Virus record (IMG/VR): IMGVR_UViG_3300025892_000198
Location: 1-21,115 of that record
Reading direction: 5' to 3' (one strand)
Source of the DNA: a virus
Length of the DNA stretch: 21,115 bases
Position numbers and translations under genes: made by a program. The stretch's first letter is position 1; each line of letters begins with the position of its first letter. Under the pieces are notes generated by a model that had not been told where the DNA came from, made no database searches, and saw only the letters and a list, made by a program, of their open reading frames with translations. Below, in pieces: positions 15,862-20,576 of this stretch.

Positions 15862-17283
15862 ATGGCACAACAAAAAGGTATATCAAAAGGTACAACAGCG
15901 AATAGAAGTATCCTTGAAGAAGGTAAAATTCGTTTCAATACCACTACAGGTTTATTAGAGTATTATAATGGTACAGCTTGGGCACCAATTGATACTCCAC
16001 CAACTATTACTAGTGTTTCTGGTGATTTAGTGGAGAGCGGCGCTTCTACAATTGTAATTACTGGTTCATTCTTTAGTACATCAGCTACGGCACAATTAAT
16101 AACAAACGGAGGTTCAGCAATTTCATTTGATACTGTTGTGAGAGATAGTGCAAGTCAATTAACTTGTACTTTAAATGATGGTAATTTAGGTACTGTAGAT
16201 GAACCTTATGATGTTAAAGTGATTAATTCTTCAGGATTATCAAATGTTTTAGAAAATGCTTTAAATGTTGATGAAAGTCCGGCTTGGGTAACTACATCAG
16301 GTGCATTAGGTAATGTAAGTGATAGCGCTACAGGCACACACTTTACATTATCGGCAACTGACCCGGAAAGTCAAGCAGTTTCCTACTACTTAAAATCAGG
16401 TTCATCTTTACCTGGAGGTTTGTCATTAAACTCATCTACAGGTGTAATTTCAGGTGACCCAACAAATGTGGGTGGAAATACTACAACTACATTTACAGTT
16501 CAGGCAACTGACCCAGGTTCAAATGTTACTGAAAGACAATTTAATATTACCATTACACCAACGCTTGATGGTTCATCATCAGCAAGAGCAAATATTTCTT
16601 GTAAGGCAATCTTTGATTTAGGTGCTTCTTTTCAAGGTTCTAGTGCAAGTGGATTATACTATATTACAAACTATGGTACTATTTCTGCCGAACAACATTA
16701 TTGTCAAATGGACACATCTTATAACGGTGGCGGTTATACATTATTATTTGCTGCTAACTCAGCAAGAAATAATTTCTCCGGCACAAACTACCAATTTAAT
16801 TTAAATAACACAGCAACACCTTCACCTGATACTGTTTATGCTAGAACAAGAGGTTCTACATTTACACCAGCTTCTGGTGATAAATTCTTATTAGAAAGAA
16901 GAGCAACAGGTCAATGGATTGTTGGAACAATTAATAGTTGGGCAGCTGGTTCAAGTTGGGCTCACATAAATGGCCATGCTTACTTAGGAAGTTTAAATAA
17001 TGCCACTTCAGAAAACACCGAAAATCTAACATCCAATTATGGTATTGATGATTTTGAATGTTGTGCTCAATCAGGAGGTTGCCAGAGCACTGGTGGCGAC
17101 CTTTGTGGATTTGGTACAGGTGATTCACATGGTTGTTATAACCATGATTCTAATACTTACTGTTACGGCGGTGGTTGGGACAACTCTAACGCATCTTTAA
17201 TGTGGGGTGGTGGTTCTGGTAATAATAACTTTGAAGGAACTTACGCTGCTTATTACTATAGACGAGATTCAAATAGTCAATAA
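15862..17283 (+). CDS. Fibre adhesin with IPT, Ig-like and fibrinogen/intelectin-like domains
   Basis: 473 aa. Residues 19-43 (LEEGKIRFNTTTGLLEYYNG) are a common fibre-tip element. About 47-135 is an IPT/TIG-like domain and about 139-232 a He_PIG Ig-like domain (LKSGSSLPGGLSL, GVISGDPTN, FTVQATDPGS). Both parallel the protein at 1445-2179. From 247 the sequence resembles a fibrinogen-related or intelectin domain: C247-KAIFDLG, GLYYITNYG, YC281-QMD, then GGGYTLLFAAN, and a C-terminal aromatic strand (AAYYYRRD). Residues 400-434 hold six cysteines (400, 401, 407, 415, 425, 434) among Gly, Ser and His. Fibrinogen-related lectins bind acetylated or diol-bearing glycans, so a host-glycan-binding tip is a reasonable inference. 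It closes the second fibre block; a thioredoxin-fold gene follows. Confidence 0.85.
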   Translation: MAQQKGISKGTTANRSILEEGKIRFNTTTGLLEYYNGTAWAPIDTPPTITSVSGDLVESGASTIVITGSFFSTSATAQLITNGGSAISFDTVVRDSASQLTCTLNDGNLGTVDEPYDVKVINSSGLSNVLENALNVDESPAWVTTSGALGNVSDSATGTHFTLSATDPESQAVSYYLKSGSSLPGGLSLNSSTGVISGDPTNVGGNTTTTFTVQATDPGSNVTERQFNITITPTLDGSSSARANISCKAIFDLGASFQGSSASGLYYITNYGTISAEQHYCQMDTSYNGGGYTLLFAANSARNNFSGTNYQFNLNNTATPSPDTVYARTRGSTFTPASGDKFLLERRATGQWIVGTINSWAAGSSWAHINGHAYLGSLNNATSENTENLTSNYGIDDFECCAQSGGCQSTGGDLCGFGTGDSHGCYNHDSNTYCYGGGWDNSNASLMWGGGSGNNNFEGTYAAYYYRRDSNSQ

Positions 17284-17320: not shown

Positions 17321-17689
17321 GTGAAACAATTGAATAATTATGATGAAGCCGTTAAGGTTATCAAAAATATTTCCAACGAAAAAGTATTAGGTATAGTAAT
17401 GACTTCAGCTACTTGCGAAGTCTGTAAAAAATTTGTTACTGATACCTTAGAGAAAATCAATGAACAATATTCAGATGTGGTAGAAATCTATCAAATGGAT
17501 ATTGAAAAACATCCAACACAAGGTACACTTCCGGTGCCTACAGTTCCAATCACATATTTTTACATTAAAGATTGTAAAGTATTTCCATTAATGCGTCCTG
17601 GTTATGCAGGATTAGAAATATTAGAAGGTGAAATTAAGAAGTTTAAATTATTATTAAAGGGTGAACCATTTGAAACAGTCTATGGATAG
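17321..17689 (+). CDS. Thioredoxin-like fold protein with CxxC
   Basis: 122 aa, GTG start with TAGGAG 6 nt upstream. The outline is thioredoxin-like: a helix, the strand VLGIVMTSA, the C32-E-V-C35 redox motif at the start of the next helix (KKFVTDTLEKINEQY), the strand IYQMDIEKHP, then VPTVPITYFY with P76 in the place of the conserved cis-proline, and a final helix (LEILEGEIKKF). The CEVC motif differs from the usual CGPC, which would alter redox potential. The family normally catalyses thiol-disulfide exchange in the cytoplasm. It follows the cysteine-rich adhesin gene and overlaps the next gene. Possible partners are the adhesin cysteines or the oxygenases, but this is inference. A role as host redox effector is equally possible. 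Confidence 0.82.
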   Translation: MKQLNNYDEAVKVIKNISNEKVLGIVMTSATCEVCKKFVTDTLEKINEQYSDVVEIYQMDIEKHPTQGTLPVPTVPITYFYIKDCKVFPLMRPGYAGLEILEGEIKKFKLLLKGEPFETVYG

Positions 17690-18323
17690 AATTGAGAGAG
17701 AACATTTAACCTGGGGTCCATATGTGATGAGGACTAAATTACCCCAAGATGTGATTGAAGAATTTAAAAAAAGAGCCGAAAAAACAATAATATCAGACAA
17801 TAATCAATTAGCTGGTCATTTAAAAGACCAGAGAAAATTTAATGAACCTGATTTTGATTGGTTTTGGGACGATATTTTTCCTAATTATTGGAAAGCATAT
17901 AGAGATGGCCATTGCACATATCATAATATTCCTAATAAACCTGTAAATTATAAACCTAGGTCTTTATGGGTAAACTTTATGAAAGCCAATGAATATAATC
18001 CACCACACATACATACTGGTCATTATTCTTTTGTTATTTTTTTAGATGTACCTGAAGAATTAAAAAAAGAACAACAGGAATTTCAAGGAACAAATTTAGG
18101 ACCTGGTACTTTGTTTTTCAATTATGGAGAAGTTACAAATCCTCAATGGACTTCTAATATGAGAAATGTTAAGCCTGAAAATGGAGATTTTTTAATTTTT
18201 CCAGCTTTAACTCAACATTATGTAGCTCCTTTTAAATCAGATGTTACAAGAATTAGTGTTTCTGGAAATTTTGATTTGGTAAAATTGTCTAATATTGATT
18301 ATGAAGATATGAGTTATTTTTAA
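17682..18323 (+). CDS. 2-oxoglutarate/Fe(II)-dependent oxygenase family protein
   Basis: 213 aa from the ATG at 17682, which overlaps the upstream stop by 8 nt. An in-frame GTG at 17661 would add seven residues, but its AAAGG sits too close to serve it. The sequence fits the double-stranded beta-helix oxygenases. Counting from the ATG, WVNFMKANEYNPPHIHTG (96-113) supplies His candidates H109 and H111 for the proximal iron site. The strand SFVIFLDVP follows. GDFLIFPALTQHYVAPF (168-184) gives the distal H179, and R190 in TRISVSGNF, 11 residues on, is placed to bind 2-oxoglutarate. Similar proteins of about 200 aa are frequent in marine T4-like phages; substrates are unknown. The stop overlaps the next ATG by 1 nt, so it is coupled to the zinc-ribbon-like protein. 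Confidence 0.83.
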   Translation: MDRIEREHLTWGPYVMRTKLPQDVIEEFKKRAEKTIISDNNQLAGHLKDQRKFNEPDFDWFWDDIFPNYWKAYRDGHCTYHNIPNKPVNYKPRSLWVNFMKANEYNPPHIHTGHYSFVIFLDVPEELKKEQQEFQGTNLGPGTLFFNYGEVTNPQWTSNMRNVKPENGDFLIFPALTQHYVAPFKSDVTRISVSGNFDLVKLSNIDYEDMSYF

Positions 18324-18508
18324 TGAAAATTTTTGCGAGTAAAGAGTTATCTGAAAAAAGATATAATATATGTAAAGGTTGTGATAACCTAAGAGGATTA
18401 ACAAAAACCTGTAAAGTGTGTAATTGTATTATGCCTTTAAAAGTTAAATTATTAAATGCAGAATGTCCTTTACAAAAATGGACAAGTCCTATGAATAGTT
18501 GGTCATAA
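18323..18508 (+). CDS. Small zinc-ribbon-like protein (DUF6171-like)
   Basis: 61 aa, basic, with six cysteines in the order C17-x2-C20, C30-x2-C33-x-C35 and C48. The core NICKGCDNL, then KTCKVCNCIM, then LLNAECPLQKW matches a family of short phage proteins I associate with DUF6171. These proteins probably bind one Zn(II) or act as small protein-interaction domains. Both ends overlap neighbours by 1 nt (TAATG at 18321-18325 and at 18506-18510), so it is produced together with the two oxygenases that flank it. This may mean it helps them assemble or find substrate, but similar small proteins also occur elsewhere in phages without oxygenases. Function unknown. Confidence 0.78.
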   Translation: MKIFASKELSEKRYNICKGCDNLRGLTKTCKVCNCIMPLKVKLLNAECPLQKWTSPMNSWS

Positions 18509-19059
18509 TGGAAAACTTTATTTTAGAATATCAAATACCTGATAGTGATTTACATATTTGTGACGATTTAATTAAATATTTTCATAATGATAATACTCCA
18601 AAAAAACAAGGCAAATCCGGAGGCCAAGTACAACTAGATAAGAAATCATCTACAGATGCTCCTATTTACATTTCTAATTTTGAATCACAAGATTATTTGC
18701 GACATTTAGAAATAGCATTTAAAATATACACAAGTAAATATCCTAGTTATCCTAAAAATACGAATGTATATAACGGTATTAATATTCAACACTATAAACC
18801 TGGAGAAGGATTTAGACAATGGCACCACGAAAGAGATGGTGGCAATTTTCCGAGTGTTGCTAGAAATTTAGTTTTTATGACATATTTAAATGATGTGCCA
18901 AACGGCGGTACTGAATGGATGTATCAAAATTATAAGTCTGAAGCAAAAAAAGGATTAACAGTATTATGGCCAAGTGACTTTACACACACTCACCGAGGCA
19001 TTATAAGTAATACACATGAAAAATATATTATAACCGGTTGGTTTATATTTAGAAATTAA
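18508..19059 (+). CDS. Prolyl-hydroxylase-like 2OG/Fe(II) oxygenase
   Basis: 183 aa. I chose the ATG at 18508 because it overlaps the upstream stop as TAATG; an in-frame TTG at 18499 is the only nearby alternative. Motifs follow the prolyl-4-hydroxylase type of 2OG oxygenase: INIQHYKPGEGFRQWHHERD (91-110), the strand RNLVFMTYLNDVPNGGTEW (119-137), then GLTVLWPSDFTHTHRG (149-164) and KYIITGWFIF. H162 is the likely distal iron ligand and K172, ten residues on, the 2OG-binding lysine, the same spacing as in prolyl hydroxylases. The proximal motif reads W-H106-H107-E108-R-D110, so the iron pair is probably H106 with E108, not the usual HxD. Substrate unknown; Pro, Lys or nucleotide-linked targets are all possible. 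It shares little with the other oxygenase of the cassette. Confidence 0.83.
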   Translation: MENFILEYQIPDSDLHICDDLIKYFHNDNTPKKQGKSGGQVQLDKKSSTDAPIYISNFESQDYLRHLEIAFKIYTSKYPSYPKNTNVYNGINIQHYKPGEGFRQWHHERDGGNFPSVARNLVFMTYLNDVPNGGTEWMYQNYKSEAKKGLTVLWPSDFTHTHRGIISNTHEKYIITGWFIFRN

Positions 19060-19073
19060 TAATAGAGGTAAAT

Positions 19074-20576
19074 ATGAAAATAGTTATTGTAGGTGGTGGA
19101 ACAGCAGCATGGTTGTCTGCTTTTATTTTTAGTCATGCAACAAAAGGAAATGATATTACTTTGATTGAATCAATGGATGTGCCTATAGTAGGTGTAGGAG
19201 AAGGTTCTACTGGAATATTTGCTGATTTATTGAATGGTAGATTTTTTCCCACAGATGTTCAATTTGAAGAAGTCAAAAGGGTACTTGATGCAACTCCAAA
19301 ATTAGCTATTAATTTTAAAAATTGGACAAGTAAAAAAGATAAAAATTATTTGTCGCCTGTTGACGGTACACCGACAGCTACACAATTTAAAGATACTTTA
19401 TTTTTACAAGGTTTAAAAAAACATAGAGAAAATTATCATTTATCTTCAACTTGTGGATTTAATTGGAATGAAAACAGAATGGCTGGCGGTGCATTTCATT
19501 TTAATACAAATCGAGTAGGTGAATTATTAAAAAATAAATGTATTTACAAAGGCGTTGAAGTTATTAATGGCACAGTACAAAAATGTATTTTAAATGAAAA
19601 TGGTGAAGTTCATTCATTGTTAATGGACGATAATAATATGTTAGAAGGTGATTTATTTGTAGATGCTACAGGTTTTAAAAAGTTTTTAATTAGTGAATTG
19701 GATGAGTGGAAATGGGTAGATTATGTTGGCCATTTACCAATGAACGCAGCTATACCTTTTGACCATAGATATGAAGATATGTCAGAAGAAGAATTTAATA
19801 ATATTAGACCTGAAACTACAGCTCAAGCTATGAACGCAGGTTGGCAATGGATGATACCTACGACACACCGAGTAGGTAAGGGCTATGTTTTTGATGATAC
19901 TATGATAAGTGAAGATGAAGCAATAAAAGAAATTAATGATTTTTACGGCAAAGAAATAGAAGTAAGAAATAAAATTAAGTTCAGGTCTGGTCGATTAGAG
20001 AAACAATGGATGAAAAATGTTTTAGCAATTGGACTTTCAGGTGCATTTGCTGAACCTTTACAAGCTACCTCAATTCACACAACAATAGTACAATTGATAG
20101 AGTTTACTCGTAAGTATTTAAAACAAAGTAAAGAAGAAACTTTAACAGATACAAACAGAAACAAGTTTAATACTCAAATGTCCAGAGTGTATGATGATAT
20201 GAGAGATTTTTTAGTATTACATTATACAGGTGATAGAGATGACACACCATTCTGGAAAAAAATAAAAACACAAGAACACATAACACCACAAGTAAAAGAA
20301 ATTTTAGAAATGTCTAAACACACGATACCTGATATGTCAACTTTTAATATCTATTTTGGTCATGTGAATAATATGTTGTGGAATTGGACATTAGCAGGAC
20401 TTGGACATATTACACCTGAATTAGCTGAAAAGGAAATGAAATACTATCGTGTCGATAGTGAAGCTTGGATTGACGACCATGTTAAGAGATATAGATTAGA
20501 CAGTCAAAATTCTCAAAATATGCAGGATTATATTATGGATGTAAATCATTTGGCCAAAGAAAAGTTTGGTAAATAG
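19074..20576 (+). CDS. Flavin-dependent tryptophan halogenase family protein
   Basis: 500 aa, the usual length for the family. Residues 1-50 carry the FAD-binding GGGTAAWLSA (7-16; family GGGTAGW) and GVGEGSTG (40-47). K76 in TPKLAINFKNW lies where the catalytic lysine of PrnA (K79) is found. DATGF at 197-201 is a second FAD contact. WQWMIP at 257-262 matches the WxWxIP motif that separates halogenases from monooxygenases. FAEPLQATSIH at 325-335 gives E327, matching the active-site glutamate of the EPLESTS motif. Known enzymes oxidise halide with FADH2 and O2 and transfer it via the lysine; VirX1 of cyanophage Syn10 is a characterised phage member that iodinates substrates. An FADH2-supplying reductase is not seen here and would come from the host or elsewhere. 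AGAGG at 19064-19068 supports the ATG. Substrate and halide are unknown. Confidence 0.92.
   Translation: MKIVIVGGGTAAWLSAFIFSHATKGNDITLIESMDVPIVGVGEGSTGIFADLLNGRFFPTDVQFEEVKRVLDATPKLAINFKNWTSKKDKNYLSPVDGTPTATQFKDTLFLQGLKKHRENYHLSSTCGFNWNENRMAGGAFHFNTNRVGELLKNKCIYKGVEVINGTVQKCILNENGEVHSLLMDDNNMLEGDLFVDATGFKKFLISELDEWKWVDYVGHLPMNAAIPFDHRYEDMSEEEFNNIRPETTAQAMNAGWQWMIPTTHRVGKGYVFDDTMISEDEAIKEINDFYGKEIEVRNKIKFRSGRLEKQWMKNVLAIGLSGAFAEPLQATSIHTTIVQLIEFTRKYLKQSKEETLTDTNRNKFNTQMSRVYDDMRDFLVLHYTGDRDDTPFWKKIKTQEHITPQVKEILEMSKHTIPDMSTFNIYFGHVNNMLWNWTLAGLGHITPELAEKEMKYYRVDSEAWIDDHVKRYRLDSQNSQNMQDYIMDVNHLAKEKFGK

Follow-up and report, generated by a model that had tools for sequence, protein, structure and literature searches.

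Genes annotated as "tryptophan halogenases" were noted in phages as early as the first cyanophage genomes, and we know of no accepted function for them. Among the described flavin-dependent halogenases (FDHs), the tryptophan 5-, 6- and 7-halogenases PrnA, RebH, Thal and PyrH process free tryptophan and possess a catalytic Glu and a long Trp-binding lid. In PrnA, the exchange E346Q lowers the rate about 100-fold and K79A abolishes the reaction; in MalA, replacement of the Glu by Gln inactivates the enzyme (PMC5727139, PMC8407142). Phenol halogenases lack the catalytic Glu altogether (PMC8407142). The bacterial enzyme BrvH (PDB 6frl) has a short lid, an open site and a Ser instead of a Gly in its halide loop (PMC5945002), and keeps the catalytic Glu (EPLESTS). 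MibH, SrpI, ChlH and VhaA halogenate an aromatic residue within a peptide, which in the case of MibH and VhaA has been hydroxylated beforehand (PMC12615548); the substrates of all four are bacterial peptide natural products, not virion proteins.

The phage FDHs include VirX1 from cyanophage Syn10 (PDB 6qgm) and the "prnA" halogenases (T4-GC 212) of S-PM2, Syn1, HTVC008M and P-SSM2. In jumbo cyanophages, clusters of halogenase and 2OG oxygenase genes have been read as secondary-metabolite systems (PMC7824862), and protection against antibiotics was proposed earlier for a phage halogenase (PMC2984593). Furthermore, marine phages carry Fe(II) oxygenases in their host-recognition islands (PMC3909814). 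Among the open-licence papers searched, we found no report of a halogenated virion protein or of an FDH with Gln at the catalytic Glu position (Gln-type FDH).

The gene described here is located on a 21-kb IMG/VR fragment of a T4-like pelagimyovirus; this whole stretch of 21,115 nucleotides is referred to as the window. Its product belongs to a known family, yet combines a natural catalytic variant with an unusually telling genomic context. The halogenases of S-PM2, Syn1, HTVC008M and P-SSM2 fall into the same PHROG (phrog_2928), but are only 29-36% identical to it; S-PM2 and Syn1 likewise contain the motif EPLQATS, whereas HTVC008M and P-SSM2 have retained the Glu. As for most phage FDHs, no lectin-headed adhesin adjoins these four. 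VirX1 shares the WxWxIP motif and a Lys (K75) in the column of PrnA K79. However, it is only ~27% identical, belongs to a separate clade and contains EPLESTG, with Glu and Gly where the window FDH has Gln and Ser. BrvH resembles the window FDH in its short lid, open site and halide-loop Ser and differs by its Glu.

Gln at the position of the catalytic Glu

The ORF at positions 19074-20576(+) is uninterrupted, begins with ATG behind a ribosome-binding-like site (AGAGGT), and codes for 500 aa. It matched the profile PF04820 with E=1.2e-88 (298.5 bits versus a cut-off of 21) and phrog_2928 with 1e-95; all NCBIfam matches to other FAD monooxygenase families were far under their cut-offs, and these families were rejected. 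An AlphaFold2 model based on a 90-sequence alignment reached a pLDDT of 95.8 and a pTM of 0.94. Applying Foldseek, Thal, PrnA, RebH, PyrH, LooH and Pseudoalteromonas L11 halogenases were detected with TM values of 0.81-0.85, the nearest folds being Trp halogenases. Among relatives of the gene, dN/dS is 0.09-0.36, with the top value near saturation. These low values indicate that the gene is maintained and exclude a chance ORF or a relic. That the protein is an FDH by descent is very likely, and it is likely that it halogenates some substrate, as opposed to catalyzing another chemistry. The confident fold prediction, the conserved Lys and the purifying selection argue that the enzyme is probably functional, in agreement with the initial annotation, which had called it a probably active halogenase and had suggested modelling its structure.

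Residues were assigned by means of a 144-sequence alignment, with the 538-aa PrnA of B. cenocepacia, which aligns without gaps to PDB 2apg, as numbering reference. Of the catalytic signatures that had been considered intact, two are indeed in place. Lys76 (codon 19299-19301(+)) corresponds to PrnA K79, and a Lys occupies this column in 320 of 322 aligned viral FDHs. The WxWxIP motif (residues 257-262; 19842-19859(+)) is present as W257QW259MI261P262 and corresponds to PrnA W272/W274/I276/P277. This motif is thought to block monooxygenation. The FAD motif GxGxxG is preserved in part: it reads GGGTAA, which retains the first two Gly residues, but the third is replaced by Ala12 (19107-19109(+)), at a position occupied by Gly in most FDHs (294 of 315 aligned viral sequences).

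The Glu of the EPLxATS motif, in contrast, had been misassigned. Glu327 (20052-20054(+)) corresponds to the non-catalytic PrnA E343, T332 to T348, and S333 to G349. The catalytic Glu, which is the second Glu of EPLE (PrnA E346, RebH E357), is replaced by Gln330 (20061-20063(+)). This numbering agrees with that of BrvH, whose catalytic E349 and halide-binding T351/S352 are equivalent to RebH E357 and T359/G360 (PMC5945002); the catalytic Glu is therefore located two residues ahead of the Thr. The residues F325..P328..A331.S333 deviate both from the Fx.Px.Sx.G tunnel motif described for active FDHs (PMC8407142) and from its variant with a charged residue. The lid segment comprises 49 residues, compared to 60 in PrnA and 51 in VirX1; a shortened lid is shared with BrvH and other FDHs whose sites are open (PMC5945002). 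Two features of Trp/indole halogenases, the active-site Glu and the long Trp-binding lid, have no counterpart in the phage enzyme.

The initial annotation had mentioned that Gln replaces a Glu common in bacterial enzymes, but had overlooked the significance of this exchange. In a set of 327 viral FDHs, which was enriched through a Gln-motif scan, position 330 is a Gln in 66 and a Glu in 257 sequences. A comparison set of 110 bacterial FDHs, drawn from 80 genome loci, contains 106 with Glu and none with Gln. The exact motif GLSxxFxEPLQAT was detected in 50 viral contigs, and a scan of 84,980 prokaryote genomes gave no match to it; as a control, the version with Glu was found in 20 of the 110 bacterial FDHs. 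The phylogeny that had been recommended yielded a virus-only clade: all Gln-type sequences formed one all-viral group in the tree containing bacterial sequences (61 tips, support 96) and again after removal of the motif columns (62 sequences, support 99). On the trees, 3-5 changes are needed to explain the Gln, varying with sampling. Judged from these sequences, the Gln may be ancestral in this clade with returns to Glu, or may have originated several times separately. Enzymes in which Gln naturally stands in for Glu provide material for comparison in the dispute over what the active-site Glu does in halogenases. Note that two FDH-like proteins (L066 5777-7318 and L067 5983-7524) contain an Arg instead of the Lys at the K79 position and DPLTGSS instead of EPLEATS; they are probably not halogenases.

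A recurrent adhesin cassette in three phage backbones

The genomic context, of which the initial annotation had made no use, is more informative than the enzyme itself. Parts of the baseplate and tail genes of the window match Pelagibacter phage Mosig EXVC030M with 76% nucleotide identity, and these pelagimyophage genes exclude a misclassified bacterial contig. Downstream of the VrlC/baseplate gene, at the site corresponding to 12.2-21.1 kb of the window, Mosig carries a different island (L008 20841-32831) with radical SAM-like, carbamoyltransferase, nitroreductase and aminotransferase genes.

Five genes directly precede the FDH gene. The first codes for a tail-fibre adhesin (15862-17283(+)) with a TIG and He_PIG Ig-like stalk and a Cys-rich C-terminal head (16573-17280(+)). 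The head has a fibrinogen/intelectin-like signature (Fibrinogen_C, E=9.5e-4), which at 19.5 bits is under the Pfam cut-off of 22. AlphaFold2 modelling of the head from 6 sequences gave a pLDDT of 31, and no match to this type of head was found among 50,697 phage records. The adhesin is followed by a thioredoxin-like protein with a CxxC motif (17321-17689(+); PF00085, 2.4e-4, just under the cut-off), a 2OG-FeII_Oxy_5 oxygenase (17661-18323(+); PF13759, 1.1e-16; phrog_81), a small Cys-rich, Zn-ribbon-like protein (DUF6171, 18323-18508(+); PF19668, 5e-6), and a 2OG-FeII_Oxy_3 oxygenase (18499-19059(+); PF13640, 2.8e-8; phrog_61). Downstream of the FDH gene lie two small ORFs; contig L002, which overlaps the window, continues with further fibre-like genes.

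The nearest FDHs, both of the Gln-type, are encoded on contigs L136 (54% identity) and L113 (53%). Both contigs display the order adhesin, thioredoxin-like protein, Zn-ribbon-like protein and FDH as in the window, and both lack the two 2OG oxygenases. The three proteins accompanying the FDH are homologous across all three loci: the eight Cys residues of the adhesin head and C32/C35 of the thioredoxin-like protein are invariant, and the Zn-ribbon-like protein is 59-64% identical to its counterparts. The latter was rejected as a specific partner of the FDH, as it is generic in phages and accompanies an FDH in only 2 of 80 loci. Like the window adhesin, those of L136 (1368-2867) and L113 (4520-5788) have heads that resemble animal intelectin/fibrinogen-like lectin domains. 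In reverse scans of viral contigs with the adhesin head or the thioredoxin-like protein, which detect close relatives only, L136 and L113 were the only loci found besides the window.

The three copies reside in different phage backbones, namely the T4-like pelagimyovirus of the window, a T7-like pelagipodovirus (L136) and a P-SSP7-like cyanopodovirus (L113). In L136, the gene ahead of the cassette codes for a tail fibre with 77.6% identity to that of podovirus HTVC021P; in L113, the genes after the cassette are 73% identical to those of cyanopodovirus P-SSP7. It follows from these flanks that the cassette has been transferred among one myovirus and two T7-like phages with different host groups.

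A second, separate lineage of Gln-type FDHs (L093, L120 and L127; support 100, long stem) is also linked to lectin-headed adhesins. In all three cases the FDH gene starts about 26-30 nt behind the adhesin gene (L093 6175-8823 and L127 1836-3008 again resemble the animal lectins). The heads match fibrinogen-like domains of intelectin-1 and tenascin/angiopoietin, with a best value of 1.9e-5 for intelectin-1. All three full-length relatives of this head are accompanied by an FDH; 13 distant relatives are not. Because the stalk of the L093 adhesin is homologous to that of the window adhesin (2e-23), the cassette and the second lineage are not fully independent cases. The cassette is represented by only three contigs and the second arrangement by three more, two of them short. 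Lectin-type heads adjoin 6 of 37 non-redundant Gln-type FDHs versus 0 of 193 other viral FDHs, counted as loci and not as independent events.

Candidate substrates of the phage halogenase

The gene linkage suggests that the FDH chemically finishes the part of the virion that grips the host. We tentatively favour, at a little under an even chance, a role in tail-fibre maturation, in which a Gln-type, two-component, FADH2-dependent FDH acts as the last enzyme of a mobile adhesin module and halogenates aromatic residues of the adhesin head. The narrower statement that the neighbouring adhesin is the natural substrate is given slightly less credence; it is based on the linkage, the short lid and the precedent of MibH and VhaA (PMC12615548), whose modification of an aromatic residue within a peptide corresponds to the proposed way of working. 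Still more cautiously, we consider it possible that a virus-only Gln-type FDH, together with a dedicated thiol oxidoreductase and sometimes with hydroxylases, post-translationally halogenates the receptor-binding lectin tip, and that the cassette passes among phages of SAR11 and picocyanobacteria, both T4-like and T7-like.

For the activity, the halide, the substrate, the order of steps and the role of the Gln, we propose the following scheme. FADH2 would be supplied by a flavin reductase of the host. This is assumed; no flavin reductase (PF01613) was found in six related phage genomes or in the window, whereas the profile matched 13 of 14 control genomes. The flavin hydroperoxide would react with halide to HOX, which would travel through the WxWxIP-lined tunnel to Lys76. 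A Tyr or Trp side chain of the newly made adhesin head would enter the open site beneath the short lid and become halogenated, and the CxxC and 2OG enzymes would oxidise Cys residues or hydroxylate the same adhesin. With Gln330, the carboxylate that serves in the reaction with indole is lost, and the site may be better suited to an electron-rich target, for example a phenol; a preference for Tyr on these grounds is a guess.

Several points argue against maturation of the adhesin: the E346Q exchange strongly slows PrnA, most phage FDHs do not lie beside such an adhesin, and the linked loci are few and not fully independent. Tail-fibre loci are hot spots of gene exchange, and the linkage can therefore also result from hitch-hiking. 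If adhesin maturation is correct, halogenation would be a new viral route to diversify or harden the host-recognition surface. In any case, the cassette provides a concrete and cheaply testable substrate hypothesis for phage halogenases.

The main rival is the halogenation of a small molecule. The FDH and the 2OG oxygenases would serve an auxiliary metabolic or biosynthetic purpose and modify a small aromatic in the infected cell, such as indole, a quinone or a metabolite derived from an amino acid. The product would be an antibiotic, a signal or a decoration of the surface, and the adhesin would merely be carried along. We regard this as possible, if rather doubtful. It would fit the readings published for jumbo cyanophages and the proposed antibiotic protection, and BrvH and VirX1 are examples of characterised FDHs with small aromatic substrates. 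Many contigs contain several FDH paralogues, up to five on a single one, and each of two 2OG oxygenase families was present in 36 of 88 FDH neighbourhoods examined. In 16 records with a length of 50 kb or more, which are partly related and in which both kinds of genes are clustered, 19 of 35 FDHs have a 2OG gene no more than 3 kb away, versus 6.6 expected (circular shifts, p ~0.001); in six phage genomes alone, the proximity is weak (p 0.03-0.07 at 3 kb). However, L136 and L113 keep adhesin, thioredoxin-like protein and FDH together across phage types without any 2OG gene, the window contains no dedicated small-molecule pathway genes, and the Trp-binding lid is shortened.

It is unlikely that the protein has changed its chemistry and acts as a hydroxylase or oxidase of its target, or that it is a weak enzyme or a relic whose fold serves only in structure or regulation. 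Gln330, Ala12 and the deviating tunnel motif point in this direction, as do the PrnA and MalA exchanges (PMC5727139, PMC8407142). Against it stand the nearly invariant Lys76 column, the preserved WxWxIP motif, the low dN/dS values, the retention of Gln through a diverse clade, and the phenol halogenases that manage without the Glu (PMC8407142). A broad iodinase like VirX1, to which the initial annotation had pointed, shares superfamily, phage origin and a similarly short lid, but is rejected as very improbable on the basis of sequence identity, motif and tree.

Further halogenase neighbourhoods

Several records, among them those of L038, L042 and L047 (G022, G023 and G027), contain 3-5 FDHs of different clades among 2OG oxygenases. 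Frequent FDH neighbours are labelled "ferrochelatase" (phrog_2954) or "DNA endonuclease V" (phrog_274), for example L042:2590-3243(-), L046:7535-8179(+) and L003 5028-5669. Their HxD...H pattern suggests 2OG/cupin-type oxygenases, and the labels are probably wrong. In L012 (3668-5953) and L127 (768-1811), Gln-type FDHs are located after or near glycine-rich (PF21722) tail adhesins, possibly a further coupling to adhesins. The Gln-type FDH of L132 (337-3243) adjoins SET-domain and WavE-like genes.
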